Assembly: GCF_029504655.1 (NCBI RefSeq)
Contig: NZ_JAQFIL010000001.1
Span: 4,903,001 to 4,967,000 of the forward strand
Length of the DNA: 64,000 bases
DNA from: Catalinimonas alkaloidigena
GTDB taxonomy: Bacteria > Bacteroidota > Bacteroidia > Cytophagales > Cyclobacteriaceae
Direction of reading: 5' to 3'
Shown here: in pieces, positions 11,297 to 55,742 of the stretch
How the letters are laid out: each line of letters starts with the position of its first letter
Numbering within the stretch: position 1 is the first letter of the stretch
Translations under genes and position numbers: made by a program
Notes under the pieces: generated by a model
What the model saw: only the letters and a program-made list of their open reading frames with translations
Databases searched by the model: none
Told to the model about the DNA's origin: nothing

Positions 11297-11307
11297 CAGC
11301 AAAGTTT

Positions 11308-34013: not shown

Positions 34014-34031
34014 TTCGGGCACGTACCCGAA
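34014..34031. promoter_or_regulatory. LacI-type operator site 1
   Basis: TTCGGGCACGTACCCGAA, an 18-bp near-perfect palindrome (one mismatched pair around the central ACGT). It is in the intergenic region before the ORF at 33998 and the PVC dehydrogenase/HiPIP genes, and is the site furthest from the LacI gene. Identical to the site at 42935. Confidence 0.8.
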
Positions 34032-34158
34032 TTTAATGAATATTTCTCTTTATCTATAATTTTTAGTCTTTTAAGTACTGAGTTTTTTTTGAACACTAAT
34101 TATTGGGTTGATTCCAAATTATCCCCCTCACCGTTTGTATCGTTATGCATAAGGTTTC

Positions 34159-36497
34159 TCAAGGTTTCAGACTCTCCTCTACAAAATTTTCTTTAGCCCA
34201 TTTGAGCATGAGTGCTTTCGTATCAGGTGAGAGCCTGTTGTAATCTTCGGGTCCTTCTAACTGAAGCTTGTCTTCCGAATGATACAGCCCATACACTTTT
34301 TTTGCTTCCAATACCGTCTTCTTAACATCTTCATATGCATGGTACTGATCCCAGCTGGGAGCGATCACAAGCATGGGCCGAGGGGCTACCGAAGCGAGGA
34401 TTTCATGATAATCATAGGGGATCCTGTCTTCATTTTCCGCAAAGAAACCTAATCGCGGCAACAGTCCGTGCAAATGGGAATAGCCATAAAATACCCTCCG
34501 CTGTTTTTCCTGTCCGGTTGAGTCTCAGAGGAGAGAACCCACTGACCGAAATCACTCCGGCTATGCGATCGTCTTTCGCGGCAGTGTATAAACCAACGGT
34601 AGCTCCCAGAGAATAGCCAGCCACCACCATTTTATCCTTGTCCAAAAACTCGAGCTGAGATAGCTCATCTATTGCCCAGCGGACGTCTGATACCATTCTC
34701 CCCAGCTTACTCCAATGGGGAAAACGTTCGTAAAATAACCTCCCCTCTTCAATACGACTTCCAAAACCGATCTGGTCAAAAGCGTATACGGCAAAACCGG
34801 CATCCAGAAACTGCTTAATGATATCTGTGGATTTAACAAAGCCCTTGGCGTAGCTGTACTCGTGCAGATAAATGACGAGCGGAAGGTCTTTCTGAGCTGA
34901 TTTCCCATCTTCCGTAAGTGGAAAATACAGCCGCCCAAACGAAATCGCCTGGCTTCCAAAGCCCGTGGGTATATTAGGAAGCCCCACCACTTCCCGCATA
35001 TAATCTGACTGTTTCCCCGGGCCTATAGAGGGCGGTTCGTCTCCCATTGCCCAATCCAGCCAATGCTCGACTTCTTTCTCTTTCTGCTCCCACTCGGGCA
35101 CCGATCTGATTTTCTTTCCTTTCTGATTGACCAGTATATTGTCAATTCCTTTCGACTCGTAGGCAAGCGGGTCAATTAACTCTTCCGACAGGCCCAGCCA
35201 ACGGGAAAAACTGTAGTTGTAATATTGTTGATTGTTCGGCACGATGCTGCCCCACCCAAAAATGTAGTCGAAGAAATCCAGGTAGCGCTCCATATCCCTG
35301 GCCGAAGGGGCATGCAGCCCATGCCTCAGGTCCAATGCTATTTTATCAGCAGCCCCCAGAAACTCATAGGCTTTTTGGGCTGACGTATACGCTTGCTCAA
35401 TCCCCCAGGGTCCCCCCTGAGATTCGGTGATAGATGAGCTTAGCATGAGCCCCCGGGGCGCGATCAGTGCCATTAATGAATTCTGGTCTACCGGAAGCTT
35501 ATGCTCCCTGCCAACAAAAAAGCGAATCCGGGGATGTAGCCAGTGAGGCTGCCAGCGGCTAAGAAGTTCAATGGTTTCATTGTCGTATTTATCTGAGGTA
35601 TAGCGAAAGGGATTTTCCCCGCCTGTACCCCCGCTGATAGGTACTACCGCTTTAATCCGCTCATCATAAGCTGCTGCCCATAGCGACATTTTACCATTAC
35701 GCGACAAACCAGTAAGCGCAATCTGCTCCTTATTCACTTTTGGTAAGCTATAGAGGTAGTCTATTGTTCGGGAGACTGCCCAGGCCCAGCGATTGATGGT
35801 ACTAAAGTCATAGTCGGGCCACCAGATTTCCTCATACGCTTCGCTATCATCCGGATACCCGTACTTAGGGTCGGTCGCCCTGAACCTTACCGCCATATAT
35901 CCACGCCGGACAGCCGCCTGTACCCAGTCGTAGCGGTTTTCCTTCCACGGACAGAGAAAAACAGGGAACGACTTTTCGCCGGGGGGAATCAGCAAGCTGA
36001 TATGAAGCCGGGCCTGATGATCAGGACCAAACTCCAGTAGCACCTCTTTTTCAGTCAAAGCCCCTAGGGTTCTTTCATGCAGCAAGCTAGCTTTCAGCTT
36101 GTCCGGGGCCGGTGGCATCGTACCGGTAATCCAGTGTTGCGCCTGTTCCTTAATCCACTGACGCTTTTTGTACCACTGTTCCATCGTTTTGACGGGAATA
36201 TTTTCTCCTCCTTCGTCCAGTATCAATGGGTCAGGCAGAAAAGGGAGTGAAGGCAACTGGGTAAAATCGGGCGGTAGTTCTCCGCTACGTTGCTGCCAGC
36301 TTGACCAGGTAGAATCAACCGGAGTAGGCGGTGGCGCATCGGATCGCCTCTGGCTGTCGGGGGGTAACACTGACTTGAGCTGCCTAAGATACTCTTCTCT
36401 TCGTTCCAATGTACTTTGAGAAGCCTCCTGCGCCACAGCCGGCAGAAATTCCCAACTACAAACAATGAAAATGAACAAAAGGCGGTATAGTTTTCAT
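34159..36497 (-). pseudogene. Frameshifted two-domain esterase (paralogue of 20608-22989)
   Basis: The minus-strand sequence encodes a protein closely like the intact two-domain esterase, with GLSRNGK and SGGTGGE in domain 1 and GYSLGA in domain 2. Two lesions break it. Near 34488-34491 a run of four A has one base too many: the frame reads EGILWLFP, whereas the shifted frame reads YGYSHLHGLLPRLGFF and continues as the paralogue does. At the 5' end the natural ATG (36495-36497) leads into MKTIPP and a stop, while the signal peptide LLFIFIVCSWEF lies in another frame with no nearby ATG. Both are single-base events; sequencing error is possible but needs to have happened twice. Confidence 0.8.
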
Positions 36498-36573
36498 CGG
36501 TTTTATTTTTGACTAGGAGAAAATATTCCGGGGGTATTGTAGTCCGGCATATCTTTTTCCAGTTTGAAATTAA

Positions 36574-38310
36574 CTACCAGTTTGGGTTTTGAACAAGCTC
36601 TGGATTTAGTTCAATCTCCTGTATTGGTATAGGGTAGAAATAATCTTTAGTTTCATCCCATGTTTTGCTAATGTGTGGGTTGATCAGTACTCTTCCCCCA
36701 TTTGCACCGTTTTCCAATTCAATATCCGATCCTAATTTCAGATACTGAAGGTTCTGGTCGGCAGGTTGATCTCCTTCATAAAGCACAACATCAATAGTAC
36801 CGTCATGGTCCAGATCATACTCCCCTAAACCAGGGAAATACATTCCATAAAATTGTCGGGTAAGCAGCTTACCTTCTTTCCATCTGAGCAAATCGTCCCA
36901 GCGGAAACCTTCCATAACCAGTTCAATACCTCTTTCCCGAATAATCTCCAGCAGTACTCCGGTGTTTTTTCCACTCAAATGGGTGTACATATCCATAAGA
37001 TAAGGATCGGGATTATTATTAGCGTCTGCCAAATTCAGGAAAGGCATATCTACCCGGGCCCTTAGCAGATTCAGCGACAGGTCAAGATCATCCTGCGTAA
37101 GCGTACCCAACTCTGCTTTGGCCTCGGCATAGTTGAGCAACACCTCAGCATACCGGAAAACAGGAATATCATTGTGCGAGCGATCGTAAGGATCATTCTC
37201 CACGCCTGTCACGAACTTTGCCAGCTGGTATCCGGTAATAGACTGGCCAAACTGGGGCAACACAGGTTCATTTTCGCCGATTCGGGTATAGCCGGGCGTG
37301 CGTATCGTTTGTGCCAGGCGAGGGTCACGGTTCTGAGTTTCTTCGTAAAACTCCATTTGCGCAAAGTCGGGCAAATCCGTAAAGCGGGAACCATTCTTCA
37401 TCAGATATGTATTCACAAAACTTTTTTCCAGCCCGGCTTTATCACCTTGCCTCGCATAAGAATTTACATTGTGATATACGGCCAGCTCTGCGCTATATTT
37501 TCTGGCTAAAATAACCTCATCTTCAATCGCGTCCATTGAGGCAAAAAGATCTAAATAGACTTCTTCGGGCTCACCCATGTAGATGCGATAAGGACTTTCG
37601 CTGATCAGTTGAGCAGACGCGTCAGCACTTTCCTGCAGAAACTTTTCTGCATCGGACAAGTCAAATTCGGGATGATACTTACGAAAAGTTCCCTCAAACA
37701 GACATATGCGCGACTTAAGGGCCAAGGCTGTCCATTTGGTTGCTTTATCAACACTAGGATTGGTAGTCATATGCTCTACGGCAAAATTGATATCTGCCAG
37801 GACTGAATCCATAACAAGTGTTCGTGAGTCTCTGGCCTTGGTGAGGAGTTCTTCATCGTTTACCGAAAGTGGTTCAGCATACCAGGGAACATCTCCAAAC
37901 CTTTTTACTTTTTTAAAATAAAACCACGCTCTGAAAAACCGGGCTTCACCTACATACGGCCGGGTGATTTCCTCACTCAGGCCTTGCCGATCATAATTCG
38001 TAAGAAAGTAATTGATTTTGCGCAGGTTATTCCAGTTCCAGCCTCCCCCGCTAGTAGGCACGATCCGTCTTCCGGTTAATTCTTCCGAGACGGTACTCTT
38101 CACGATATTATCCACACTCTCGGTATAGATACTTGATCCGGTAGGGACGATACCATCGTACAATGAGTTAAGGTAGAGTCTCAGGTCTTTCTCACTCGTA
38201 AAAAAAGAATTAGGTGAAACTTCTCCTAAAGGCTCTCTGTCCAGGAAGTCTTCCTGACATGAGCTTGTCAGAATAATGAATACTAATAATAATATGCTTA
38301 TCTGTTTCAT
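36574..38310 (-). CDS. SusD/RagB-family glycan-binding lipoprotein
   Basis: A 578-residue SusD lipoprotein (signal ending LTSSC, Cys about residue 18, then QEDFLDREPLGEVSPNSFF). It carries the TPR-like block YVGEARFFRAWFYFKKVKRFGDVPWY, the block FRYAEVLLNYAEAKAELG and the ending FYPIPIQEIELNPELVQNPNW. It is paired with the SusC 58 nt upstream, a wider gap than in the other three pairs. The damaged esterase gene lies 76 nt downstream, suggesting this pair once worked with that esterase. Confidence 0.94.
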   Translation of the reverse strand: MKQISILLLVFIILTSSCQEDFLDREPLGEVSPNSFFTSEKDLRLYLNSLYDGIVPTGSSIYTESVDNIVKSTVSEELTGRRIVPTSGGGWNWNNLRKINYFLTNYDRQGLSEEITRPYVGEARFFRAWFYFKKVKRFGDVPWYAEPLSVNDEELLTKARDSRTLVMDSVLADINFAVEHMTTNPSVDKATKWTALALKSRICLFEGTFRKYHPEFDLSDAEKFLQESADASAQLISESPYRIYMGEPEEVYLDLFASMDAIEDEVILARKYSAELAVYHNVNSYARQGDKAGLEKSFVNTYLMKNGSRFTDLPDFAQMEFYEETQNRDPRLAQTIRTPGYTRIGENEPVLPQFGQSITGYQLAKFVTGVENDPYDRSHNDIPVFRYAEVLLNYAEAKAELGTLTQDDLDLSLNLLRARVDMPFLNLADANNNPDPYLMDMYTHLSGKNTGVLLEIIRERGIELVMEGFRWDDLLRWKEGKLLTRQFYGMYFPGLGEYDLDHDGTIDVVLYEGDQPADQNLQYLKLGSDIELENGANGGRVLINPHISKTWDETKDYFYPIPIQEIELNPELVQNPNW

Positions 38311-38368
38311 TGGTCTTTAATGATTGAGGTTAGATCAAAATTTCGGCCTGGGTTAATCATTGACATTC

Positions 38369-41300
38369 CTAAAAGGATAGATCCACCCCGAATGAATACG
38401 TTTTACCGAATGGGTATACCCTAGCATGAGAGCTTGCCGCTGCCTGCTCAGGATCAATAAGGTCGGTTTCCAGTTTGGTTAGAGTAAACAGGTTCTCACC
38501 GCTAAAGTACAGCCTTACCTTACTGAGTTTTATTTTCTCAATCAAGGATGAAGGGAGTGAATAGCCGAGCGTTAGGTTTTTCATCCTCAGATACGCCAGA
38601 TCCTGTAGATACTTATCATTATTTACCGATAAGGAACTGCCACTGGTGAGGGCAATATACCCCCGCAAATTAGGGAAATAGGCATTAGGATTTTCCGGGC
38701 TCCATACCTTGTCCATAAAGTCTTCCGAGATAAATGAATAGTAGGGGCGTGCGTAGGGTCCCCAGAATCTTCCGGCATTGTTACCGGGATACCAGTTTTG
38801 TTTGCCGATTCCCTGAACAAAAAATGAAAGATCAAATCCATTCCAGTTTGCCCCTCCTCTAAACCCAAAGGCATAGCGGGCCTGGGTGTTTCCGATTAAC
38901 GTTAAGTCGCCGTGATCATTCAGTGTGTTCTGTCCGGGGCTGATGATCCCGTCCCCATTCAAATCTCTGAACTTGATATCCCCGGCTCTCAACTGCCCCC
39001 ATTCCCCCGGTGCCCTAAGGATACGGCTGTTGACCAGCGTTTGATCTATGGGATGGTCTGCCGCTTCCTGATCAGACGCAAAATAACCTTCTATGTTGTA
39101 GCCCCAGATTTCTCCCAGTTCCTGTCCTACATAGTACTGATTCAATAATTTGGTAGGGTTGTCAAACTTGGTTATGATCGTTTTATTATCTGAAACCACC
39201 AACCCTAGATTATAGGATAGGGCTTTACCTGCCAAAGTTCCATGGTTACGCCAGTCCATCGCCACTTCCCATCCTCTGGTTCGTAAATCCGCCGCATTTT
39301 CCTGAGGTTCATTGGCGCCAAATACTTCAGGCAAGGTTTTACCCTTCGTTAACATGTCTTTTGTATTACGGTTATACCAGTCAAAAGAACCCGTTAAGCG
39401 GTTATCAAAAAAGCCCAGGTCTATCCCTACGTTAGTGGAAGTAATGGTTTCCCAGGTCAGACTAGGGGAGATTGGATTCGGGGCAGTAATATACTCGGTT
39501 TTGCTATCATCCATGATATAGCTCGAGGTGCCGCTATTCATGACAGGGATGTAGGCATACGTACTTACCTGCTGATTTCCCAAAGATCCATATGAAGCTC
39601 TGAGTTTCATATCGCTTACTAAACCATTGAGCGGAGCGAAAAAGCTTTCCTCACTCACCCTCCAGCCGGCAGAAACTGATGGAAAAAAGCCAAACCGGCT
39701 ATCCTCGGGAAAGCGCGATGTACCATCATACCGCCCATTCACTTCAAGCAGATATTTTCCTGCAAAATCATATCCTAAGCGGTAGAAAGCCCCGATTAAT
39801 GCCCATTCGCTGGCTGTGCCATTGATATTCTCTTCTCCCGTTCCCAGGTTCAGCTCATTCAGCTCTTCAGAAAGCAGGTTATTTCTGGAACCATACATCA
39901 CCTTAAATTTTTTCAATTCCTGATTATAGCCAGCCATGGCTGATACGGTATGTTTGCCTAAGGTTTTGGAATAATTACCGTAAATATTCGCCACATGGTA
40001 CTGATCCAGGTTCATTGCTTCGTATAACCTATCATTACCCAGATAGTTGATTTCTCCCGGATAGATGGACCAAGGCGCCTGAGTGCTTCGGCTAAAGCTG
40101 GAATAGGGGCTTAGGCTAAAAGTGTAATTACCGACTATATTCAGGTCATCTGTAATTTTAGCATTCGCTTCTACCGTATTGATGAAATCATAATTCTGGT
40201 TACCTCCTTTGGACTTTCCGTGAAGCAACTCAGCAAAGATGCCATCTCCAATACTAAAATTATTCAGGTTGGTCCGATAGAGCGCTGTACCGTCGGGGTT
40301 CACTGGTACATAAGACGGTAATGCATGCACTGTCGTTAGCAGGAAATTGGTGTTAGGCTCTCTTCCCGGATAGGTATAGCTGGATGCATTGAATCTAGTA
40401 TTGGTTGACAGCTGTAACCAGGGTGAGAGTTCAGCATCAATCTTTGCCCGGAAGTTGATACCCTTATAAATGTCTTGATTAAACCGCATCATCCCTTTCT
40501 TCTGATAATACCGGCCTGAGATCATATACTTTACCTTCTCACTTCCTCCCGACATCCGTAAAGAGTGTTCCACAGAAGGCTGAACATCTCTAAAAAAGTA
40601 ATGCCACCAGTCAGTGTTGCCGTAGTGCACATACATATCTCTACCATCTCGGTTTTGGACGACCACCTGGGGGAGGTTAGGATCGTTCCTTCTTTTTAAG
40701 AATTCCTCATAATCCTGATCAGTATATCCGGTATAGTATCTTCCATAAGCTCGGTAGTATGAGTCATCCCACAACTTAGCCGCTTCATAGGGGTCAGTCA
40801 GAAAGTCGGTGCTTACTGTAGGGGTAGACCAGCTAAAGTTATTACTGTAATTTACCTGAATCCCTCCTTTTTTTCCACTTTTGGTAGTAATCAAAATTAC
40901 CCCAAAGGCCCCTCGGGCGCCATAAATTGCCGAGGAGGATGCATCTTTTAGTACCGAGACACTTTCTATGTCTCTCGGGTTTATCATGTCCAGATCACCA
41001 GGTACCCCATCAATCACTACCAGTGGAGAGCCCCCGCTAATGGAGTTTGTGCCCCGTATGTTTAATGTTGCATTGCTGCCGGGACGCCCATCTCCAAAAG
41101 ATACATTCAGATTAGGAACCGCTCCCTGTAATGCCTGGGTGACATTCGCTACAGGACGGTCGTCTAAAGCTTTGGAATCAATTTGGCTCACCGCACCCGT
41201 CAGGTTTACTTTTTTCTTGGTTCCGTATCCAACTACAACCACTTCCTGTAACTGATCAATGTCTTCCTGCAGTTGTATATCAATTACGGTTTGGTTATTT

Positions 41301-41557
41301 ACCGGAATTTCCTGAGTGATAAATCCCACTGAAGAAAAGATCAGGTGGTCTGTGGGGCTTACTAATATTGAATATTTTCCATTACTATCCGTAATGGTTC
41401 CTACCGCACCATCCTTTACCAAAACTGTTACCCCAGGTAGAGGGTCATTATTAGTTACATCGGTTACTATGCCCATAACCTCTAGTTCCTGAGCTTTCAC
41501 CCAGTTACATACTGAGCAACAGCTCACTAAAATTATGATAATAAGATACTTTTTCAT
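38369..41557 (-). CDS. SusC/RagA TonB-dependent transporter
   Basis: A 1062-residue transporter with a signal peptide (ending VKAQ), a carboxypeptidase-regulatory-like domain (about 27-95), the linker VVVVGYGTKKKVNLTGAVSQI, a plug with LNIRGTNSISGGSPLVVIDGVP, and a barrel ending GVDLSF. It lacks an STN domain. The linker has KKK instead of QKK, so it belongs to a different SusC branch from the other three. It has its SusD directly downstream and no operator palindrome in front of it. Confidence 0.95.
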   Translation of the reverse strand: MKKYLIIIILVSCCSVCNWVKAQELEVMGIVTDVTNNDPLPGVTVLVKDGAVGTITDSNGKYSILVSPTDHLIFSSVGFITQEIPVNNQTVIDIQLQEDIDQLQEVVVVGYGTKKKVNLTGAVSQIDSKALDDRPVANVTQALQGAVPNLNVSFGDGRPGSNATLNIRGTNSISGGSPLVVIDGVPGDLDMINPRDIESVSVLKDASSSAIYGARGAFGVILITTKSGKKGGIQVNYSNNFSWSTPTVSTDFLTDPYEAAKLWDDSYYRAYGRYYTGYTDQDYEEFLKRRNDPNLPQVVVQNRDGRDMYVHYGNTDWWHYFFRDVQPSVEHSLRMSGGSEKVKYMISGRYYQKKGMMRFNQDIYKGINFRAKIDAELSPWLQLSTNTRFNASSYTYPGREPNTNFLLTTVHALPSYVPVNPDGTALYRTNLNNFSIGDGIFAELLHGKSKGGNQNYDFINTVEANAKITDDLNIVGNYTFSLSPYSSFSRSTQAPWSIYPGEINYLGNDRLYEAMNLDQYHVANIYGNYSKTLGKHTVSAMAGYNQELKKFKVMYGSRNNLLSEELNELNLGTGEENINGTASEWALIGAFYRLGYDFAGKYLLEVNGRYDGTSRFPEDSRFGFFPSVSAGWRVSEESFFAPLNGLVSDMKLRASYGSLGNQQVSTYAYIPVMNSGTSSYIMDDSKTEYITAPNPISPSLTWETITSTNVGIDLGFFDNRLTGSFDWYNRNTKDMLTKGKTLPEVFGANEPQENAADLRTRGWEVAMDWRNHGTLAGKALSYNLGLVVSDNKTIITKFDNPTKLLNQYYVGQELGEIWGYNIEGYFASDQEAADHPIDQTLVNSRILRAPGEWGQLRAGDIKFRDLNGDGIISPGQNTLNDHGDLTLIGNTQARYAFGFRGGANWNGFDLSFFVQGIGKQNWYPGNNAGRFWGPYARPYYSFISEDFMDKVWSPENPNAYFPNLRGYIALTSGSSLSVNNDKYLQDLAYLRMKNLTLGYSLPSSLIEKIKLSKVRLYFSGENLFTLTKLETDLIDPEQAAASSHARVYPFGKTYSFGVDLSF

Positions 41558-41850
41558 TTCACACAGAATAGTTAGGTGTTGAGATAATAGTATTTTGAAA
41601 GATATACTTGCGCTTCTCTGTATAATCCTTAACTGGGTATCAAACCCGATGGGCTGCTTTCCAAGGGACTTTCCAGATCACCGAAGCTGACTAGATTTCA
41701 TACGCATTTCTAAACACATATGAATTTACCCTCCCTCTCTTACCGGCTACAATTATGAATTGGGAATCACGCATTCCGCTATTAATTAAAAGATCAGGTG
41801 CTGACAAGCTTATACAATCCTCCGTATGGCGACATGTAATGGAATTGTCA
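41558..41850. other. Intergenic region upstream of SusC
   Basis: 293 bases between the SusC start and the end of the Gfo/Idh gene. Short open frames here run across the neighbouring gene in the wrong frame and are not supported. It probably holds the promoter of the SusC/SusD pair; I see no LacI-type palindrome. Confidence 0.4.
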
Positions 41851-42918: not shown

Positions 42919-42934
42919 TATTATTTGCTTGTAT

Positions 42935-42952
42935 TTCGGGCACGTACCCGAA
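42935..42952. promoter_or_regulatory. LacI-type operator site 2
   Basis: TTCGGGCACGTACCCGAA, identical to the site at 34014, ending 16 nt before the ATG of the Gfo/Idh gene on the minus strand. Confidence 0.82.
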
Positions 42953-43044
42953 ATGATTAAAAAAAATTTTGAGTCAGGTTATCGATGTCAGCATATATGT
43001 AATTTAATGTTTGTTAGTTGAAGCCACTGTGACAATTATTTTTT

Positions 43045-43062
43045 TACGGGCACGTACCCGAA
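43045..43062. promoter_or_regulatory. LacI-type operator site 3
   Basis: TACGGGCACGTACCCGAA, same core as site 2 with one changed outer base; middle copy of the three-site array. Confidence 0.8.
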
Positions 43063-43144: not shown

Positions 43145-43162
43145 CACGGGCACGTACCCGAA
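43145..43162. promoter_or_regulatory. LacI-type operator site 4
   Basis: CACGGGCACGTACCCGAA; the upstream-most copy of the array, 116 nt beyond the stop of the lipoprotein Gfo/Idh gene. Confidence 0.78.
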
Positions 43163-45872: not shown

Positions 45873-45897
45873 CTCAGCGTATTCTTGCTTATTATTC

Positions 45898-46674: not shown

Positions 46675-48136
46675 TTTCCTGAATTGAAGCCAATAATTTT
46701 TTTACACGTTCGGGTACTTCTTTTCTATTGATGTATCCCATACCCACATAGACAATAGTAGAAACGAATACTGGTAAGCCTATTTCCAAAGCCATACTTC
46801 CCATCTCTACATTTTTGGTAATGATAAATGTAATAAGTCCGGCAGCGATGGAAGCGATTGCCGCCCTGGGTCCGCAACTTTTGAAAGCTGGTAATAGTCC
46901 AAAGAGCATAGGTACAGCTATAGGTCCCAGTAAGGCACCAAACCAGGAAATAATCAGCCCCACAACCCCTCCAAATCGTTCCTGCTGTAAGGCTACAGTG
47001 ATGGTCAGAAGAGTAAAGACGAAGGTAGTGATCCGCGCTGTGGTCAGCGACCTTCTTTCATCTTTAAAGCGGGCTGAAACTACCGGCAGTATGTCACGGG
47101 TAATGACGGCGGAAATGGTATTCACATCTGATGAAGTCATTGACATGGTGTTTGCAAATAATGATGCGATGACCAAACCAATGAGTCCGGAAGGTAGCAG
47201 TTCCAGGGTAAGCGCACCATAAGCTTGTGAAGGATCTTCTAAACCTGGCAAGATAATCGGAGCTGCCCACATAGGGAAAAAAAGTATCAAGGGCCATATC
47301 AGATATAAAATTCCAGAAAGGTAGGCTGCTTTAGAGGCCTCTTTTTCATTAGGGGATGAGATATAGCGGGTGGCCAGGTTCCAACTTCCACCATTGTAGC
47401 TGAGAAAGTTGATAAACAGAAAAGCCAGCGCAAATGCCACAGTATAGGGCTCATTAAAGAGCTGACTATTTTCCTGTGGTAACTGTTCCCACACACTAAA
47501 AACAGAGTCAAATCCATCTAACCTTTTCACTACCACCACAAACATGACAATACCTGCCACGATCTGTACTATAAACTGGGTGAAATCCGTGATAATAACT
47601 GCCCAAAGCCCACCAAAAGTGATGTAGATCAGGGATATTCCCCCTGAAATCAGAATTCCTGTGCTGAGGGATAAACCTGTAAATATATTCAACAGGATAG
47701 CGATAGCAGCCCATTTGGCCCCTACATCAAATAGCTTAAGCAACACTCCACTCCAGGCCATAATTTGCTGGGTAAGCACATTGTAGCGGTTAGCCAGGTA
47801 TTCCAGCGGAGACTGTATTCTGAATTTTTTACGTAAGCGTACCCAGAAGGCAGGGAAGATCCTGGCACTTATGATGATAGAAAATCCAATGGTGAATGCC
47901 CACCAGATGTATAAGGAAAATCCATGTGTGTAAGCTAGTGCGGCATAGGCTACAAAGACTGCTCCGCTGTAGCCTGACACATGATGAGAAATACCGGATA
48001 ACCACCAGGGCAGGTTTCCACCAGCCACAAAGTAGTCTTCTACATTCTTGTTTTTGAAATAAGACCAAAAACCTATCAGAAGCATGGCCAGGAAGAATGA
48101 TCCAATGACAATAAGGTCAATGTTACTTAATTCCAT
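46643..48136 (-). CDS. Sodium:solute symporter (SSS family)
   Basis: A 497-residue inner-membrane SSS transporter, expected to have about 13-14 membrane helices. It starts with LIVIGSFFLAMLLIGFWSYF, contains DYFVAGGNLPWWLSGISHHVSGYSG (residues about 35-60), and has the conserved late block MSMTSSDVNTISAVITRDI near 330, which includes serines that bind Na+ in vSGLT-like proteins. It overlaps nagB at its 3' end, so it very likely carries the pathway's sugar or sugar acid into the cytoplasm. A second, fused SSS protein is at 59304-61799. Confidence 0.92.
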   Translation of the reverse strand: MELSNIDLIVIGSFFLAMLLIGFWSYFKNKNVEDYFVAGGNLPWWLSGISHHVSGYSGAVFVAYAALAYTHGFSLYIWWAFTIGFSIIISARIFPAFWVRLRKKFRIQSPLEYLANRYNVLTQQIMAWSGVLLKLFDVGAKWAAIAILLNIFTGLSLSTGILISGGISLIYITFGGLWAVIITDFTQFIVQIVAGIVMFVVVVKRLDGFDSVFSVWEQLPQENSQLFNEPYTVAFALAFLFINFLSYNGGSWNLATRYISSPNEKEASKAAYLSGILYLIWPLILFFPMWAAPIILPGLEDPSQAYGALTLELLPSGLIGLVIASLFANTMSMTSSDVNTISAVITRDILPVVSARFKDERRSLTTARITTFVFTLLTITVALQQERFGGVVGLIISWFGALLGPIAVPMLFGLLPAFKSCGPRAAIASIAAGLITFIITKNVEMGSMALEIGLPVFVSTIVYVGMGYINRKEVPERVKKLLASIQENDDERHYKKI

Positions 48137-48162
48137 CGTGATTTTTTAAAGTAAATAATTTA

Positions 48163-49224
48163 TTATCGCAGCCACTTTTCCAGCTTCTCTTTCACAAAAG
48201 CATCATCATTGAGTTCCGGATAGGCCTGGTATACTCTGGTGATCTCTTCACTTTGCCCAGCAGACATACATTCATCAGGATTGAGGCACCATGTACCTTC
48301 AAGTAAGCCTTGTCTTCGCAATACTTCGTGTATGCCAGCGATACAGCCTTTGAAGTGGTTGGCTGAATCAAAAAAAGCAGCATTGGAATCGGTAACCGCA
48401 ATGCCTCGGGTGAGCATCTCGCCTGCTACAGCATTTCCATTGTCTCTGATTTTTTTGATCTCGTCCAGCAGTTCCACTGCTTTCCTTGTCCATACTGCCC
48501 AGTGTCCGAGCAGCCCTCCTACAATAGCTTTTTCCCTTTCCTCACCCTGGACCCTAAAGCGATAAGTGGTAAGTAAGTCGGCTACAATATTGTCATCATT
48601 ACCCGTATACAGAGCAATATCCCTGTGGCGAGAAGAATGACATACGGCTCTTACGACATCCAGGGTCTGGTAACGGTTAAAGGGTGCCATCTTAATCGCT
48701 TGTACATTGGGTATTTCGGCAAAATCTTTCCAGAAATCAAAACTCAGCACCTTACCTCCCACCGCTGGCTGGAGGTAAAACCCAAATACAGGAATTACTT
48801 CAGCGATCTTCTCCGTTCTTTTAATCAGTTGTGCTTCTGAAAGCTCTGCCAGACCACCATTGCTCACCAAGCCCAGGTCGTATCCCAGTTCTACAGCAAG
48901 CGCTGCTTCCTGCAAAGCCTGTGCTGTAGGTCCTACAATCCCTGCTATTTTGATGAAGGGTCGGTTTAGCTGTGCCTGCTCCACTTCTTCCGCGGCCAGT
49001 TTCAGCACGGGCTTAAACAGCTCAAACTCCTTTTTCCTGATTTCAAACTGGGTGGTATGTACACCTACGGCTATACCGCCTGCACCACTATCTATGTAAT
49101 ATCGCGTAAGGGCACGCTGCCGCTTTTCATCCATTTTCCTGGATTTATCTAAAGCCAGGGGGTGTGCAGGAATGACGGTCCCTTCAAAAAGTAATTCTTT
49201 AATCGCTGGTTCTAATGATCTCAT
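48163..49224 (-). CDS. DHDPS/N-acetylneuraminate-lyase-family aldolase
   Basis: A 353-residue class I aldolase-like TIM-barrel protein. The Schiff-base Lys is in AIKMAPFN and the catalytic Tyr in FGFYLQPAV. The substrate loop, usually GSTGE, reads VGVHTTQF, so it is not a standard DapA or NanA. It is about 50 residues longer than those enzymes, mostly at the C-terminus. It probably cleaves or forms a C-C bond in a keto-acid intermediate. It lies 26 nt before the SSS gene and 27 nt after the SDR-like gene. No NanE or NanK is nearby, which argues against plain sialic acid breakdown. Confidence 0.85.
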   Translation of the reverse strand: MRSLEPAIKELLFEGTVIPAHPLALDKSRKMDEKRQRALTRYYIDSGAGGIAVGVHTTQFEIRKKEFELFKPVLKLAAEEVEQAQLNRPFIKIAGIVGPTAQALQEAALAVELGYDLGLVSNGGLAELSEAQLIKRTEKIAEVIPVFGFYLQPAVGGKVLSFDFWKDFAEIPNVQAIKMAPFNRYQTLDVVRAVCHSSRHRDIALYTGNDDNIVADLLTTYRFRVQGEEREKAIVGGLLGHWAVWTRKAVELLDEIKKIRDNGNAVAGEMLTRGIAVTDSNAAFFDSANHFKGCIAGIHEVLRRQGLLEGTWCLNPDECMSAGQSEEITRVYQAYPELNDDAFVKEKLEKWLR

Positions 49225-49251
49225 TTGTTAATTCTTGTAAGTCACTCATCA

Positions 49252-50268
49252 TTAAAAAGCCCCTTTTCTTTCCTGAAAATGGGTAGGTTTATTAATAGTA
49301 TCTCCTCCACTGCTAAGCCAGATGGTTAGAACTTCAATCATTGCCTTCAGGCTTACTTTCGGGTACCCAAAAAGCTGATGGGCAGTGGATGCATTGTTGA
49401 GCAAAGCTGTAGGTTGCTCTTCATTGACAAAGAGCGGCTTTTTATTAAAAATTTTCCCGAACTCCTCAGCAGCCCAACGGATGGAAACGGTCTCTGGTCC
49501 GGTAATATTCAGCTTACGGGGCGGTGACTCGCAAAACTTGAAAGCTCTCAAGGCATACTCATTCGCATCACCCTGCCAGATTACATTTACATGTCCGGTG
49601 GACAGGTCAATTTCTTTCCCCTCTAATACCGACTTGGCTATTTCCAACAATACACCGTACTTAAAGTCTATAGCGTAATTGAGACGATAGATCAGCGTTG
49701 GAATCTGATATAAGTTAGAAAAGTGTTCAAACATCCGCTCTCTGCCAAGGCAGGATTGCGCATACTCTCCTACCGGCCCAGGCGTTGTCTCTTCTGTGGC
49801 TCCTCCTGAATAAACCGGTACAAAAGGATAGACATTGCCGGTAGAGAAAACCACAATCTTCGAATTTCTAAATTTCTCTGCTACTTTTCCCGGCAGGTAA
49901 GCATTCATAGCCCAGGTAAATGACTCTTTTCCGGTTGTACCAAACTTGGTTCCCGCCATAAAGATTACATTCTTTACCGCTGGCAGACTTTCAAGTTGTT
50001 CGTTATCAAGCAGATCAGCTTTGATCGTCTGAACCCCCTGACTTTCCAAATCCTGCTGAAGAGATGAATCCGAAAATCTGGAGACTCCAATCACCGCATT
50101 ATCTTTGCCCGCGGCTATCAGAGCCTGCTTGGCTAATACTGCCAGACTAGGTCCCATCTTCCCGCCTACTCCCAGCAGCAATATATCTCCATCCAAGGTC
50201 TGCATATCACTGATAAGATCCTGGCTCGGAGCTAATAGTTGTTTTTCCAGTGTTGCTAAGTCTTTCAT
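49252..50268 (-). CDS. NAD-dependent epimerase/dehydratase-like (extended SDR)
   Basis: A 338-residue extended-SDR protein. The nucleotide-binding motif GVGGKMG lies at residues 33-39. The active-site Ser/Thr region is VFSTGNVYPF. At about residue 170 the motif reads YAQSC, where the family has YxxxK, so the catalytic Lys is absent (an Arg follows four residues later in LGRE). It may be a modified reductase or have lost the usual chemistry. It is 7 nt after the Nramp-like gene and 27 nt before the DHDPS-type gene, so it is part of the operon. Confidence 0.82.
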   Translation of the reverse strand: MKDLATLEKQLLAPSQDLISDMQTLDGDILLLGVGGKMGPSLAVLAKQALIAAGKDNAVIGVSRFSDSSLQQDLESQGVQTIKADLLDNEQLESLPAVKNVIFMAGTKFGTTGKESFTWAMNAYLPGKVAEKFRNSKIVVFSTGNVYPFVPVYSGGATEETTPGPVGEYAQSCLGRERMFEHFSNLYQIPTLIYRLNYAIDFKYGVLLEIAKSVLEGKEIDLSTGHVNVIWQGDANEYALRAFKFCESPPRKLNITGPETVSIRWAAEEFGKIFNKKPLFVNEEQPTALLNNASTAHQLFGYPKVSLKAMIEVLTIWLSSGGDTINKPTHFQERKGAF

Positions 50269-50275
50269 AATATTT

Positions 50276-51469
50276 TTATCTAATGAATTGCAAATAAACC
50301 TGACTGGCCGATAAAAAGAGTAGCAGTCCCAGTCCCAGTATACCTCCTATATTTTTCCAGTGATTGTTCTTCAAATCTCCCATGCGAGCCTTGTCATTGG
50401 CCAGCACCAGTAATGCTATACCTACCAGAGGTGCAATGATGATGGTGATGGCCTGAGCAAATACGATTAATTCTAATGGCAACCTTCCAAACCTGAGGGC
50501 AATAGCCGCTCCTATCACCATGACCAACATAATCATGCCCCTTACTTTGGGAGATTTAAGTTGATTGCCTAATGAAAAAGCGTCGGCCAGTAATGAGCCG
50601 CCGATGGTAGCATTCCCGATCAGCGATGAAAAAGATGCACCGAACAAACCTAACATAAAAATGACAGTAGCGGTACTTCCGTAAAGAGGCTCCAGTGCCA
50701 ATCCCATATCAGTAGCTGAGTTGACCTGTATGCCTTTAGGGTATAAGATGGCCGCAGCATTGATTAGGATGAACAATGAGATCATTCCTAAAACCATCAC
50801 GCCAGTAATAGCTTCTTTTTTACCTTGCTTGATTTGATTTTTCTTCCACCCTTTTTCTTTCACCAGATAGCCCTGATAAAAAGCCCCTACCACTGAAAAG
50901 CTGGAAGCGATCAATGCGATGGTCAACACTTCAGAGCCTGAAGGTAATGTGGGGACTAAACCTAAGCCAACCGCTGCCAGATCAGGTTTGGCTAATGCCA
51001 GGGTGATCAGGAAAGAGAGTAGCATCACTGCTACTAATGCGATCATCACTTTTTCCAACACTTTATAAAATGACCTGAAAAAAAGCAGGCTAATCGCAGT
51101 AAGTGTAAATGCTAAGACCCAGGGCTCTACATTGGTATGAAAAAGCTCAGCAAGGGCAAGGCTTGCCCCTACCGTATTCCCTGCCTGAAAAGAGGCAGTG
51201 ATAGCAAATATGCCTAAACCTAAAATAATGGAAGCCGCTTTACCCCATTTATCTTTTATGATGCTTAGCAATGAGGATTCCGTAGCAATGCCTATGCGGG
51301 CTCCCATCTCTGTAAAAATCACCATAAAAAAAATGGCGCTTACGATCACCCAAATATGGTTGTAGGCATATAAAGAGCCCAGTTTAGAGGTAATAGTAAG
51401 ACTACCGGGGCCAAATACAAGAGCTGCTGTAATGATTCCAGGGCCTAAATACCTGAAAAGATGTTTCAT
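50276..51469 (-). CDS. Nramp-fold transporter without the metal-binding motifs
   Basis: A 397-residue inner-membrane protein of the Nramp/APC fold, about 11 helices. In metal-carrying Nramps helix 1 has DPGN; here the same place reads GPGS. The helix-6 MPH motif is replaced by SVVGAFYQGY. The general frame is otherwise kept (LGPGIITAAL, FTEMGARIGIATESSLL, ASFQAGNTVGASLALAELF). The ligand set for divalent metals is therefore missing and an organic substrate or another ion is more likely. It sits inside a sugar operon directly after a Tat-exported Gfo/Idh gene. Confidence 0.85.
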   Translation of the reverse strand: MKHLFRYLGPGIITAALVFGPGSLTITSKLGSLYAYNHIWVIVSAIFFMVIFTEMGARIGIATESSLLSIIKDKWGKAASIILGLGIFAITASFQAGNTVGASLALAELFHTNVEPWVLAFTLTAISLLFFRSFYKVLEKVMIALVAVMLLSFLITLALAKPDLAAVGLGLVPTLPSGSEVLTIALIASSFSVVGAFYQGYLVKEKGWKKNQIKQGKKEAITGVMVLGMISLFILINAAAILYPKGIQVNSATDMGLALEPLYGSTATVIFMLGLFGASFSSLIGNATIGGSLLADAFSLGNQLKSPKVRGMIMLVMVIGAAIALRFGRLPLELIVFAQAITIIIAPLVGIALLVLANDKARMGDLKNNHWKNIGGILGLGLLLFLSASQVYLQFIR

Positions 51470-51530
51470 ATAGCGGCTGGAATCAGTGGGTTCGAGGACG
51501 ATGTATACTGTTTGTTAATCATAATATAAT

Positions 51531-52751
51531 CTATAAAGAATACTCCGGTTTCCAATATTGGTACTTCTCTTCCCGCATGGCTTTATTTCCCATGTGAACG
51601 GCCACACTTACATCTTTCCCGGTATCCACGTTAGAAAATGGTTTTTTGTCGTTTCTGATACAGTCAGCAAAGTTCAGCAGCGCATAGGCGGTAGGTGAGC
51701 GTTCAGCATTGTCTTCCGTTTTGTAATTCAACAAGCTGGGTTCTCCCTGCGTCCAGGCTTTAATTGTAGCTCCCGATACCCCATCAACCACGCCCAGTTC
51801 TGCCTTATCTGCTTCAGTATACAGGTAAGCTTTATCCCGCTGTATTTCTATGGTAGCCTCTGTCCCCAGGATACGAATAGAATACCCTTTATAGGCATTA
51901 CTGAGCACCGAGCTTACAGAAGCTTTAACACCGTTTGGATATTCATAGACTGTACGTACGTTGTCATAAGTTTCTCTCCCATCTTTCCAGTAATCTATAC
52001 CTCCCAGCCCTGAAACTTTAAGTGGCGGGCTATCATTCATCCAATTGACAATATCCAGCTGATGAGCACAAAGTTCAGCCATCAGTCCACCGGAAAATTC
52101 ACGATACATTCGCCAGTTGACCAGTTTTTCGTTTTTGGGATCTTTCACTTCCCGGCGCCAGTCATCATTACGATGATACTGGCACTCATAATGCTTTACT
52201 TCTCCACACCATCCTTTAGATAATACTTCATGCACCTTATGATATAAGGCATAATATCGGTACTGATGACCAATCTGAAAGACCAGCTTAGTAGCATTAA
52301 CTTTATCTACCATTTTCAGCGCCTGAGGAATGTCATAGCTCATCGTCTTTTCCAGGTACACATGCTTGCCCGCCTCCACGGCATGCATAGCCATTGGAAA
52401 ATGCAGGGACAATGGCGTTGCGATGATAAGCGCGTCTAAATCCTTATCGGAAAGCATTTTCTGATAATCAGTATAGGCTTTAGCCCCCTTGGCAGCCATG
52501 CTAATCCCTCTCTGTAAATGCTCCTCATTGATATCACAACAGGCCGATAATTCTACTCCTGGTAAATCTTTCAGGACATGTGCGATTCCCCCTCCCCTAC
52601 TGCCTACACCAATGAGTCCAACACGTACTTTTTCTAAATGGGTTGAAAAAGGGGCAAACACAGATGAAGCGTTGGAATACCCAAAAGCTGCCAGCCCGGA
52701 TAGCGCTGCAGCATTCGTTAATATGAATTTTCTGCGGGATGTATTTTTCAT
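51531..52751 (-). CDS. Tat-exported Gfo/Idh/MocA oxidoreductase
   Basis: A 406-residue exported oxidoreductase. The start at the ATG 52749-52751 gives a Tat-like signal (SRRKFILTNAAALSGLAAFG); an upstream GTG adds 8 residues. The Rossmann motif is VGLIGVGSRGGG. GKHVYLEKTMSYD has the family Lys, and the second domain has LMAELCAHQLDIVNWM with the active-site His. It is the first gene of the operon reaching 43278. The operator at 52785 is 33 nt before its start. Relatives oxidise or reduce glycosides at C3 or remove sugars by an oxidise-eliminate mechanism. Confidence 0.88.
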   Translation of the reverse strand: MKNTSRRKFILTNAAALSGLAAFGYSNASSVFAPFSTHLEKVRVGLIGVGSRGGGIAHVLKDLPGVELSACCDINEEHLQRGISMAAKGAKAYTDYQKMLSDKDLDALIIATPLSLHFPMAMHAVEAGKHVYLEKTMSYDIPQALKMVDKVNATKLVFQIGHQYRYYALYHKVHEVLSKGWCGEVKHYECQYHRNDDWRREVKDPKNEKLVNWRMYREFSGGLMAELCAHQLDIVNWMNDSPPLKVSGLGGIDYWKDGRETYDNVRTVYEYPNGVKASVSSVLSNAYKGYSIRILGTEATIEIQRDKAYLYTEADKAELGVVDGVSGATIKAWTQGEPSLLNYKTEDNAERSPTAYALLNFADCIRNDKKPFSNVDTGKDVSVAVHMGNKAMREEKYQYWKPEYSL

Positions 52752-53117
52752 TCTATATATTTTTACAAAAGGCACAAAACCACTAACGTGTACGTACCCG
52801 AAAGTATTAATAAAAAACTAAACTGAAAAGGTTTCATTGAATAAAATCGCATAGAAAATGAGGTCCTGCTGAATAAAGTGAGGTATAGACCTGTCATCTA
52901 AATTTTACTATATCTCAGAATAAGCCAGGAGATCGGCATCTTCAAAGCCAATCCACCTGTACTGTATTTTACTACCTTTTTCATACTTGAAAGTCTCTGC
53001 TTAAGGATGAAAAAGATCATCTCATTTGATTTCAAAAGAACGAATCAGCTTTTCAAGCTCAAAGTTACAATCTGTATCTTGATTCCTACTTGCTGATATA
53101 CTCTAAGTACTTATCAG
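52752..53117 (-). promoter_or_regulatory. Intergenic region carrying an operator
   Basis: 366 bases before the nine-gene-long operon. The only structured element is the palindrome at 52785. No gene or hairpin was found in the rest, which is mixed-composition sequence. Confidence 0.5.
52785..52802. promoter_or_regulatory. LacI-type operator site 5
   Basis: AACGTGTACGTACCCGAA: the right half-site is perfect and the left half is degraded. It is 33 nt upstream of the start of the Tat-exported Gfo/Idh gene, so it should control the whole operon down to 43278. Confidence 0.72.
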
Positions 53118-54158
53118 CTAATACCTGCCTTGCAGGGCTGACTGTGCTTTTTTCATCACATTCTCCACGCTCACTTCTTTGCCTCCCTGTCGTTTACTTT
53201 CGTCTGCTGCTTCCATAAAGGCAAAGATTTCAATAGTTTCTTCGGGTGCAACAGGGGGGTTTCCTGTATGGAAGAATTTTACTATTTCCACAACCAATGG
53301 CCTGTAGCCTGCATATGGACCTATTGGAGAAATACCTTCATCTCCGAAAGCAGTACCTCCGTATCCGAGTTTACCCGCCCGCATACCTCTAAATGTGCCT
53401 ATACGACCATCATTCCAGGTACCTACTACTACATCCATATCATCAGTATGGGTTCTTTTAACCTGCTGACACCCTACTCCCATCACGGTATAAAGCGTTT
53501 CTACACCATGCACACCATACCAGTATAAATCCGGATGTGTTTTTTCCAGATGAGCAGGACTGTAAGCATCAGCCCCCATTACTTTCCCTATTTTTTCGCC
53601 TCTGCGGATCCCCTGTGCATTTTCTGCATAGCGTAGTGAGGAAGAAGAAAACAGAGGCACCTTGTATTGTTTGGCTGCTTCAAAAATAGCAATCGCATCC
53701 GGCAAAGATGCAGCCACGGGTTTATCAATAAAAACCGGCTTACCTGCTTTAAAGACTTGTAAAGCCTGCTCAAGGTGTCGGCGCCCGTCATTGGTTTCCA
53801 GCAGAACCACATCTACTTTCTCCAGCAGTGCGTCCACAGAATCCACTATTTCCACTCCCAGCGCTTGAATTTCTTTGGTATAGCCGGGAATACGGCTTAC
53901 ACTTTTTTCAATGTCCTTACTGCCATGAGGATAGGCAGCCACTACCCTGACTCCAGCAATATCGGCAAGTGCTTCAGGATCGTTCAGCACTTTGGTAAAA
54001 GCCACACTATGAGAGGTATCCAGCCCGATGATACCCGCCTTCAGCTCCTTAGATGGTTTGCCTACCATACCATAAGATGGATAAGTAGCCAAACTGAGTC
54101 CCACTGCTGAAGCAGCTGAAGTTTTGATAAAATTTCGTCTTTTGATAATATTATTCAT
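53118..54158 (-). CDS. Tat-exported Gfo/Idh/MocA oxidoreductase
   Basis: A 346-residue protein from the ATG at 54156-54158 (a TTG 12 codons upstream is less likely). It has a Tat-like signal KRRNFIKTSAASAVGLSLATY, then KAGIIGLDTSHSVAFTKVL for the Rossmann part and GKPVFIDKPVAA, the DKP version of the family motif. The second domain has VHGVETLYTVMG. The group with LDTSH at the first strand differs from the standard GxGxxG and is often seen in exported Gfo/Idh copies. It lies 105 nt after the Gfo/Idh gene at 54264-55598 and probably shares its transcript. Confidence 0.85.
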   Translation of the reverse strand: MNNIIKRRNFIKTSAASAVGLSLATYPSYGMVGKPSKELKAGIIGLDTSHSVAFTKVLNDPEALADIAGVRVVAAYPHGSKDIEKSVSRIPGYTKEIQALGVEIVDSVDALLEKVDVVLLETNDGRRHLEQALQVFKAGKPVFIDKPVAASLPDAIAIFEAAKQYKVPLFSSSSLRYAENAQGIRRGEKIGKVMGADAYSPAHLEKTHPDLYWYGVHGVETLYTVMGVGCQQVKRTHTDDMDVVVGTWNDGRIGTFRGMRAGKLGYGGTAFGDEGISPIGPYAGYRPLVVEIVKFFHTGNPPVAPEETIEIFAFMEAADESKRQGGKEVSVENVMKKAQSALQGRY

Positions 54159-54263
54159 TTTGAATTTTATTTCTGATAATTGATCTATTGGCAAGAGAAA
54201 AATACTGACAAAAAAACTATACTGCTATTCTAACAGACATTTTATCGCTTACATCCGCTCAAT

Positions 54264-55598
54264 TTATACACTAGGATCCCAGCCGGATTCATACTCTCTA
54301 CCCCACAAAGCCATTGCCTCCTCATCACCAATTATTTTTCCATTTTTCGGATCACAGTTAAGTACACGCCTGGTACGATAGGCTATGTTACCCAAATGGC
54401 AGATATGTACGCTCTTATTGGCATCTTCAATATGCGATACCGGCTGTTTACCACTTAGAACACACTCTCTGAAATTGTTCAGGTGTCCCTGGTCCAGGTC
54501 AAAGCCCGGACCGGTGGTATCCAAAGCATTTGTTTGTTTTTGACTTGCTCTTTTGATCTCTTGATTACGGTTGTCGTATACCACATATCCATTGCCGTCA
54601 ATGACCAGGGTACCTTTCTCCCCATGAAAAGATGCCCCTGCGGACATCCCTTCCAGATTATGCCTGTTGCAGCTTCTACCCTCCCAGGATATGCTTTTTT
54701 GGTCCTCAAAATCGTAGTATGCGAGCTGTGTGTCCGGAGTTTGCCAGTCATCCTGAAATGCGTACCTTCCTCCACCTGAACTTACCCTGATCGGATAATC
54801 AACACCTAGCCCCCAGCGACACAAGTCTATAAAATGCGTTCCATTGTTGAGCAGTTCACCGGTCCCCCAATGCCACAGCCAGTGCCAGTTATAATGAATC
54901 AGATTGTCCTGATAGGGTTTACGAGGAGCTGGCCCCTGCCACAACTCATAGTCCAAACCGGCAGGCACCGCTGCTTGCTTGCCATATCCCATAGACCCTC
55001 TGGAATTAGCGTACCAGGCACGTGCAAAGTATGCACGCCCAATGATTCCGTCTTTCAGTTGCTGAATCCCTTCCACTACAAAAGGCCAGGATCTTCGTTG
55101 ATTACCCATTTGCACTACCCGATTGGATTTACGTGCGATATCCACCAGCATTTCACCTTCCTGGGGATTATGGCTACAGGGTTTTTCTACATACACATGT
55201 TTGCCTGCCTTCAAGGCCATGATAGCTGCCGGAGCATGCCAGTGATCGGGCGCAGCGATAGCAATAGCATCCACACCTGTATCTTCCAGTACTTTACGAA
55301 TATCTTTCTCCGCCTTTGGTGTTTTCTTTTGTCCGCCATCTTTGGTGGCCTGTATACCTTTTTCAATAGCCTGCTCATCTACATCACAGATATAGCCTAC
55401 CTCTGTGCCCTTTAGTTTGGCAAAACCTCTTGCTAACGCACTTCCACGGCTGTTGGTACCCATCACTGCCACTACTACTTTTTCGTTGGCAGATCCATTG
55501 TATTGAATAAATGGAGAGGATGCGCTAGTCAGGCTGATTCCCAGTCCTCCCACAGCTGCTTTTTTAATAAAGTCTCTTCGTTCGTTATGCTCTTCCAT
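54264..55598 (-). CDS. Tat-exported Gfo/Idh/MocA oxidoreductase
   Basis: A 444-residue exported oxidoreductase with the Tat-like signal ERRDFIKKAAVGGLGISLTS. The Rossmann part begins VAVMGTNSRGSALARGF, and GKHVYVEKPCSHNP is a perfect EKP motif. The second domain has LLNNGTHFIDLCRWGLGV with the active-site His region, plus a long middle with WHWLWHWGTGE. Homologues are common in Bacteroidota and Planctomycetes polysaccharide loci. A perfect 18-bp operator palindrome lies 126 nt upstream, between it and the LacI gene, so it is very likely a repressor target. Confidence 0.9.
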   Translation of the reverse strand: MEEHNERRDFIKKAAVGGLGISLTSASSPFIQYNGSANEKVVVAVMGTNSRGSALARGFAKLKGTEVGYICDVDEQAIEKGIQATKDGGQKKTPKAEKDIRKVLEDTGVDAIAIAAPDHWHAPAAIMALKAGKHVYVEKPCSHNPQEGEMLVDIARKSNRVVQMGNQRRSWPFVVEGIQQLKDGIIGRAYFARAWYANSRGSMGYGKQAAVPAGLDYELWQGPAPRKPYQDNLIHYNWHWLWHWGTGELLNNGTHFIDLCRWGLGVDYPIRVSSGGGRYAFQDDWQTPDTQLAYYDFEDQKSISWEGRSCNRHNLEGMSAGASFHGEKGTLVIDGNGYVVYDNRNQEIKRASQKQTNALDTTGPGFDLDQGHLNNFRECVLSGKQPVSHIEDANKSVHICHLGNIAYRTRRVLNCDPKNGKIIGDEEAMALWGREYESGWDPSV

Positions 55599-55724
55599 AG
55601 GTTTAGTAATAATTTATGTATTAGTAACTTTAATCAGAAGTTGAGATACACAAGCTCTATTGATCATCTGTGTGCTGTCAAAAGGAGGAAAGTATTCTTA
55701 ATGAGTTCAACTGAATTTATGATT

Positions 55725-55742
55725 TACGGGTACGTACCCGTA
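55725..55742. promoter_or_regulatory. LacI-type operator site 6, perfect palindrome
   Basis: TACGGGTACGTACCCGTA is a perfect 18-bp palindrome and the most symmetric of the six. It is in the 297-base gap between the LacI gene and the exported Gfo/Idh gene, 126 nt before the latter's start. Confidence 0.85.

Follow-up and report, generated by a model that had tools for sequence, protein, structure and literature searches.

The window analysed here is a 64,000-nucleotide stretch of the Catalinimonas alkaloidigena genome (contig NZ_JAQFIL010000001.1, positions 4,903,001 to 4,967,000). At 55896..56966, on the minus strand, it encodes a LacI-family regulator of 356 aa, which is the predicted owner of six palindromic sites distributed over the genes that follow. 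Every gene assigned in the interval from 29.5 to 57 kb is encoded on the minus strand. In addition to the regulator, the cluster encodes five Gfo/Idh-type proteins, NagA-like and NagB-like proteins, sodium:solute symporter (SSS) and Nramp transporters, DHDPS and epimerase family proteins, a SusC/SusD pair, a PVC-type haem protein (DUF7133) and a high-potential iron-sulfur protein (HiPIP). A sequence-only reading of the window had described the palindromes and attributed them to the LacI protein by inference.

Results

The regulator combines a LacI helix-turn-helix domain with a periplasmic-binding-protein-like sensor domain (PF00356 and PF13407, both above cut-offs). Its recognition helix reads VSLATVDR and its hinge ASRLAS, and the hinge leucine (window residue 63) is invariant across a seven-protein alignment. 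The best-scoring solved relative is PDB 3gbv, a putative LacI-family regulator (162.6 bits), the match being restricted to the ligand-binding part, residues 63-355 of the regulator.

The six sites precede four predicted transcription units. Operator 6 (55725..55742), a perfect palindrome, stands upstream of GfoE (54264..55598; PF01408, PF19051), a Gfo/Idh/MocA oxidoreductase with a twin-arginine translocation (Tat)-like N-terminus (RRDFIKK, read by eye), and of GfoD (53118..54194; PF01408), a Gfo/Idh-type protein. The LacI gene does adjoin this copy, as the sequence-only reading had it, but the site lies past the LacI stop codon and upstream of GfoE. Operator 5 (52785..52802, CGTGTACGTACCCG) precedes a long operon that begins with GfoC (51531..52775), a Gfo/Idh oxidoreductase recognized by a profile match, whose ATG is probably at 52751 and whose N-terminus is likewise Tat-like by eye (SRRKF). 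There follow an Nramp-family transporter (50276..51469; PF01566, NF037982 above cut-off), an NAD-dependent epimerase/dehydratase-like protein (49252..50268; PF01370), a DHDPS/NanA-like aldolase family protein (48163..49224; PF00701, with a weak N-acetylneuraminate lyase match), a sodium:solute symporter (46643..48136; PF00474), a NagB-like glucosamine-6-phosphate isomerase/deaminase family protein (45898..46674; PF01182), a NagA-like amidohydrolase (44724..45929; PF01979, nearest solved structure 3egj) and GfoB (43278..44678; PF16490), a putative oxidoreductase.

Three operators, spaced 110 and 100 bp apart (operators 2 to 4, at 42935..42952, 43045..43062 and 43145..43162), lie upstream of GfoA (41851..42918), a Gfo/Idh oxidoreductase with nearest solved structure 3fhl, in whose sequence we noticed no export signal. 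The genes for a SusC-like TonB-dependent receptor (38369..41557; PF07715, PF00593) and a SusD-like lipoprotein (36574..38310; PF07980) possibly belong to the same unit. Operator 1 (34014..34031) precedes an open reading frame (ORF; 33534..33998) with no Pfam or NCBIfam match, the first gene of the predicted fourth unit, which continues with the PVC-type CxxCH haem-binding protein (DUF7133; 31361..33469; PF23500, TIGR02604), HiPIP (31002..31358; PF01355) and a 469-aa protein with no Pfam or NCBIfam match (29526..30935). Site centres fall approximately 135 bp upstream of the GfoE start, 42 bp upstream of the GfoC ATG, approximately 25 bp upstream of GfoA (operator 2) and approximately 24 bp upstream of the ORF before DUF7133. 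The last distance, and with it the earlier statement that all sites are intergenic, depends on the start codon chosen: all six can be read as intergenic, but a GTG start at 34022 would put operator 1 inside a 162-aa ORF, while the in-frame ATG at 33998 (154 aa) leaves it upstream.

Measured against the consensus TTCGGGYACGTACCCGAA, which was used to scan the window, each of the six sites has zero to three mismatches, far beyond what chance would give (dinucleotide shuffles of the window yielded a mean of 0.01 matches and at most 1). The palindromes are thus confirmed where they had been reported, as are the ACGT at the centre of every copy and the perfect symmetry of the copy at 55725, which its flanks lengthen to 22 bp. 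Even symmetry around a central CG is the form expected of a LacI-type operator. Four of the six sites have a single C/T asymmetry at positions ±3 from the centre; those at 52785 and 55725 are T/T.

The 14-bp core CGGGYACGTRCCCG, searched with at most one mismatch, occurs at six places in the 7,923,645-base genome, and these are exactly the six sites of the window, all in one 22-kb cluster; the same core read backwards gave two places. Such a grouping of all copies around the regulator and its neighbours is that of a local regulon and not the random genome-wide distribution that would have spoken against one. At two mismatches the core gave 41 matches and its backwards control 39, so only near-perfect copies are informative, the specificity of the pattern rests on them, and genome scans at two mismatches were discarded.

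Two other species of the genus (G001 and G002) were searched in 40-kb stretches around their LacI genes. Both have a LacI orthologue, 67-68% identical to the window regulator and followed by a largely matching cluster. A counterpart of the site at 55725 lies upstream of GfoE (perfect in G002, one mismatch in G001), and one of the site at 52785 lies upstream of the Nramp operon in both (two mismatches to CGGGYACGTRCCCG, one to the broader pattern CGKGYACGTRCMCG). The other four window sites have no visible counterparts in these stretches. Of two more two-mismatch places in G002, one falls within an ORF and the other adjoins genes that the window cluster lacks. Neither the window nor G001 or G002 has a site upstream of the LacI gene itself; sites do occur upstream of the regulator gene at loci L058 and L105, and in L056 one falls at the edge of a LacI ORF that was called too long.

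Beyond the genus, 80 named loci were gathered using an alignment of four LacI proteins, including loci from Chitinophaga, Dyadobacter, Mucilaginibacter, Parapedobacter, Larkinella, Cyclobacterium and others. When all perfect 12-bp palindromes were counted over these loci, with no motif supplied, GGGTACGTACCC came first, in 38 of 80; the next, GTGTACGTACAC (a G/T variant of the same motif) and AAAAATATTTTT, reached six loci each. With at most one mismatch, CGKGYACGTRCMCG gave 119 matches in 67 of the 80 loci, against 4 for the reversed pattern. Together with the window and the two congeners this makes 129 sites, 120 of them intergenic by automatic ORF calls, and the gene most often found downstream is GfoD. 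GfoD is also the commonest partner of the regulator (45 of 84 sequences), followed by a major facilitator superfamily transporter (41), the NagB-like protein (40), and the amidohydrolase and GfoE (39 each). Among the loci of 13 non-orthologous LacI proteins, which are short, none has a site, nor do those of two relatives of 33-34% identity (L010, L011). In two distant relatives, G005 (29-32% identical) and G023 (43%), CGTGTACGTACACG lies upstream, in G023 at 183 bp from the match.

Whole-genome scans covered 21 of the genomes of these 80 loci. Exact CGGGTACGTACCCG has 18 occurrences, spread over 13 of the 21 genomes (reversed control, 0), and 16 of these occurrences lie within approximately 17 kb of a LacI relative. 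Exact CGKGYACGTRCMCG occurred at 60 places (reversed control, 3), and a relative of the regulator is found within 10 kb of 31 of them and within 20 kb of 39; 17 of the remaining 21 are intergenic, and here too the distribution is not random. Five of the 21 distant sites have as nearest genes homologues of window proteins (54-62% identity): two of GfoC, in two Dyadobacter genomes (56 and 58%), one of GfoE (54%) and two of the SusC at window 26332-29385 (54 and 62%). In other species, then, the regulon lies partly in trans, these distant operator copies (among L243-L260) standing upstream of the SusC, GfoC and GfoE homologues. In genomes of the family outside the genus, by contrast, all ten exact matches among those listed sit inside ORFs of 341-4400 aa, and the surrounding 5.7-15.5 kb contain no LacI homologue. 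Considered as possible cases of the motif in genomes that lack the regulator, these are as expected of chance.

The recognition helix and the site vary together. Residue x of V-S-x-A-T-V-D-R, residue 24 of the window regulator (AA-15 in the numbering of PMC2978694), covaries with the base at position 3 from the site centre (NT-3). Where it is Ile, T stands at ±3 in 192 of 196 half-sites; where it is Leu, Ala or Arg, C does so in 34 of 52. Counted by locus, any C at ±3 is present in 8 of the 10 with a non-Ile residue and in 3 of the 59 with Ile (Fisher p 8e-7), without rows for L091 and for a second LacI copy of the host genome, discussed below. With base 3 left free, residue 24 came top among the 120 protein columns, with a mutual information of 0.378 against 0.219 for the runner-up, and the half-site totals at NT-3 were T 249, C 51, A 25 and G 7; 12 non-identical site-bearing loci, out of 37 found later, joined this ranking. 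In the tree, C-bearing non-Ile residues stand separately at L063, L092, L113, the L117-L121-L131-L132 clade and the window; L122-L123, which have T, occupy a further place.

Relatives found later follow the same pattern. Three Dyadobacter genomes contain relatives with Thr at this residue, and CACGTG sites lie 87-119 bp from these, with C in 8 of 8 half-sites. Three genomes (G397, G402, G404) hold two paralogues, each with its own site type alongside; the Ile paralogue is accompanied by CGGGTACGTACCCG in G402 and G404 and by a mixed site in G407. The Thr-type loci L194-L196 were known before the prediction was written; L207-L228 were obtained afterwards. Among the nine non-identical site-bearing loci that came after it, the Thr locus has C on both sides and seven of the eight Ile loci have only T; the eighth (L221) offers a mixed one-mismatch match with a broken core. 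Two relatives of 40-41% identity (L199, L200) gave neither a site nor a parsed helix. A covariation of NT-5 (G/T) was also considered, but its best columns (10 and 108) lie outside the recognition helix, and we therefore make no claim for it.

Bacteroidota promoters have a -33/-7 consensus of TTTG and TANNTTTG. For comparison with it, the sites were oriented to their genes; omitting 12 whose distance from a start exceeds 250 bp or that come too close to the end of a sequence, and 15 near-duplicates, left 102 of the 129. TTTG occurs at -41..-33 from the site centre in 25 of 102, concentrated at -37 to -35, whereas 22 control windows gave counts of 3-11. When up to one mismatch is allowed, TANNTTTG peaks at -13 (30 of 102) and -15 (14 of 102), with approximately one per position elsewhere. 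The spacing of TTTG and of TA..TT, at -15 or -13, is that of a Bacteroidota-type -33/-7 promoter overlapping the operator. Three of the six window sites have TTTG in register, those at 43045 and 43145 approximately 35 bp and that at 55725 approximately 36 bp before the centre.

Discussion

We consider it highly probable, from the comparisons above, that the six palindromes are operators of the LacI protein at 55896-56966, which would repress four transcription units together. The sequence-only reading had inferred this ownership, and it now finds support in the congener sites, which fall next to orthologous genes at two matching positions, in the prevalence of the same palindrome at orthologue loci, in the lack of sites beside non-orthologous LacI genes and in the covariation of a recognition-helix residue with a base of the site. 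We propose that without inducer, probably a sugar-like intermediate, a dimer of the LacI protein binds CGKGYACGTRCMCG, its recognition helices reading the two arms and its hinge leucines presumably entering the central CG. Since the left arm of the operator overlaps the -7 box, the bound repressor would cover the transcript start, and repression by blocking RNA polymerase is likely. The units held silent in this way would be GfoE-GfoD; GfoC-Nramp-epimerase-DHDPS-SSS-NagB-NagA-GfoB; GfoA, possibly followed by SusC-SusD; and the ORF-DUF7133-HiPIP-469-aa unit.

The pathway so controlled is probably the catabolism of an acylated amino sugar or a related compound via Gfo/Idh oxidoreductases. Of the targets named earlier, the Gfo/Idh, NagA/NagB-type and HiPIP units do have sites upstream, but the names NagA and NagB fall under the curated equivalog cut-offs (209.6 bits to TIGR00221, cut-off 225.65, and 135.5 bits to TIGR00502, cut-off 236.9), which leaves the assignment of effector and pathway provisional. 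The NagB-like protein (45898-46674) has FNDP where the solved NagB 2bkv has FNEP, at what we take to be the place of the catalytic Glu, and its reaction may therefore differ.

Several observations weigh against this picture. Three of the four congener sites have one or two mismatches to CGGGYACGTRCCCG. At one mismatch, 13 of the 80 orthologue loci have no site (in one of them a site lies 1.7 kb beyond the locus edge), and 15 of 27 further non-identical relatives have none within 1.5 kb. Within the host's own family, 18 genomes have an orthologue at E <= 1e-100, and 15 of these lack exact CGKGYACGTRCMCG altogether; the Cyclobacterium clade, an exception to the conservation of sites upstream of orthologous genes, retains the regulator without the motif. 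One G of the operator itself contributes to the promoter match at -13, and a smaller TANNTTTG peak (13 of 102) falls at -23, in a T-rich stretch. As to covariation, two Leu loci (L122, L123) carry T, contrary to the rule; 6 of 86 loci break it when base 3 is left free; 25 half-sites with A and 7 with G also occur at Ile loci; only 4 of 12 window half-sites have C, although the window residue is Leu; and the Fisher test and mutual information take no account of relatedness beyond the separate places in the tree.

Seven of the 15 family genomes without exact CGKGYACGTRCMCG were examined: five are rows of the tree, and two (L164, L166), near-identical to L119 and L125, were left out of it. The five rows form, with L119, L125 and L133, one clade of eight rows with 100/100 support, which suggests a single change there. 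The genes that neighbour the regulator also differ in L119, L125 and L133, and no shared palindrome stood out as a replacement motif in the clade (L119, L125, L133, L164-L170). The recognition helix of these loci is near-identical, yet the palindrome is absent nearby.

The alternative that survives best, though we think it improbable, is that a second LacI copy in the host genome (G000:C1:2843057-2844124), 63% identical to the window copy, owns all or some of the sites and controls the cluster in trans. A count by eye gives 10 differences over 58 positions of the DNA-binding domain, of which only that at residue 24 falls in the recognition helix; there the second copy has the ancestral Ile. 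It could thus bind some of the sites, and Ile would favour the two T/T copies at 52785 and 55725. It also stands where G001 keeps its LacI: its 533-aa neighbour shares 83% identity with the 528-aa protein that adjoins LacI in G001. The cluster of the window may therefore have relocated together with a diverged copy. However, only one two-mismatch site-like place occurs within 20 kb of the second copy, and that inside an ORF; it is the window copy that adjoins the sites, and the four C-containing sites suit its Leu. The two copies may share the predicted sites. The second copy also adjoins a gene that resembles ribBA by eye.

Activation instead of repression by the window regulator would have precedent, since some LacI-family proteins activate transcription, but the overlap of the operators with the -7 box in the aligned sites suits repression, and we judge an activating role quite unlikely. 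Still less likely is that another regulator conserved with the cluster binds the sites while LacI merely travels along. Site and LacI gene are mostly close, and linkage alone would explain much of their co-occurrence; it does not account for the even palindrome with central CG, typical of LacI-family sites in the consulted portions of PMC4052901, for the dependence of the site base on the LacI recognition helix, or for the paralogues that each stand beside their own site type, the mixed site of the Ile copy in G407 apart. That the inverted repeats act as RNA hairpins (terminator or riboswitch-like), in which T-A to C-G changes at ±3 would also preserve pairing, we regard as very improbable, given a palindrome without a loop, four window sites whose C/T combination breaks pairing at ±3, base changes that track the recognition helix and an overlap with the promoter box.

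The LacI-family operators described in the consulted part of Ravcheev et al. (2014; PMC4052901) are mostly even palindromes with a central CG, and 72% of the regulators are autoregulated; a single taxonomic group stood for the phylum, Bacteroides. The regulon of the window resembles these RegPrecise local regulons in its even CG palindromes, its sugar-type genes and the position of sites upstream of starts, and differs in having no autoregulatory site in the window; its regulator, motif and target set do not appear in that part of the paper. UxaR, UxuR, UxmR and KdgR of Bacteroides (Ravcheev et al. 2013, PMC3878776) also belong to the LacI family and control sugar pathways in this phylum; by their description in the portion consulted, to which the comparison is confined, they serve glucuronate, galacturonate and mannuronate pathways. 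No description of the motif or of the string GGGTACGTACCC was found in the open-licence literature, a search outside which RegPrecise lay.

The window regulator departs from the published LacI code in one respect. In the part of Camas et al. (2010; PMC2978694) consulted, the TVSR code couples AA-15/16 to NT-5/4, AA-20 to NT-6 and NT-2 to AA-55, AA-15 and AA-5, the hinge Leu goes with the central CG, AA-20 Arg accompanies G at NT-6, and, in our reading, the backbone has A at NT-3. A base-setting AA-15, Arg at AA-20 with G at NT-6, and the hinge Leu with central CG are shared. By contrast, the helix here is TVDR, AA-15 is coupled to NT-3, and that base is mostly T or C instead of the canonical A; neither 'TVDR' nor 'NT-3' occurs in the main text of that paper. 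This is therefore a new regulon of a known type, with a helix and a coupled position outside the published code. It is possible, although we would put slightly less than even weight on it, that a TVDR subgroup of LacI proteins in several Bacteroidota orders binds with a geometry different from that of TVSR proteins, in which AA-15 contacts the base pair 3 from the centre. One substitution, of Ile by Leu, Ala, Thr or Arg, would then be enough to turn GTACGTAC into GCACGTGC and to separate paralogues within the same cell.

LacI regulons beyond gut Bacteroides are little described in the literature searched, and an operator pattern is now available for a widespread LacI subfamily. One signal ties together Gfo/Idh enzymes, NagA/NagB-like proteins, a haem protein with HiPIP, and SusC/SusD, and the residue-to-base rule, which lies outside the published code, is directly testable.

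Other genes of the window also recur in the neighbourhood of the regulator. The cluster of the DUF7133 protein is present in 6 of 84 regulator-locus sequences, and the 469-aa protein (29526-30935) recurs around the regulator in 7 of 84. No site lies near the SSL_N-like, ceramidase-like and DegT-family genes at 9923-14075 of the window; such genes recur beside the same regulator in other species.

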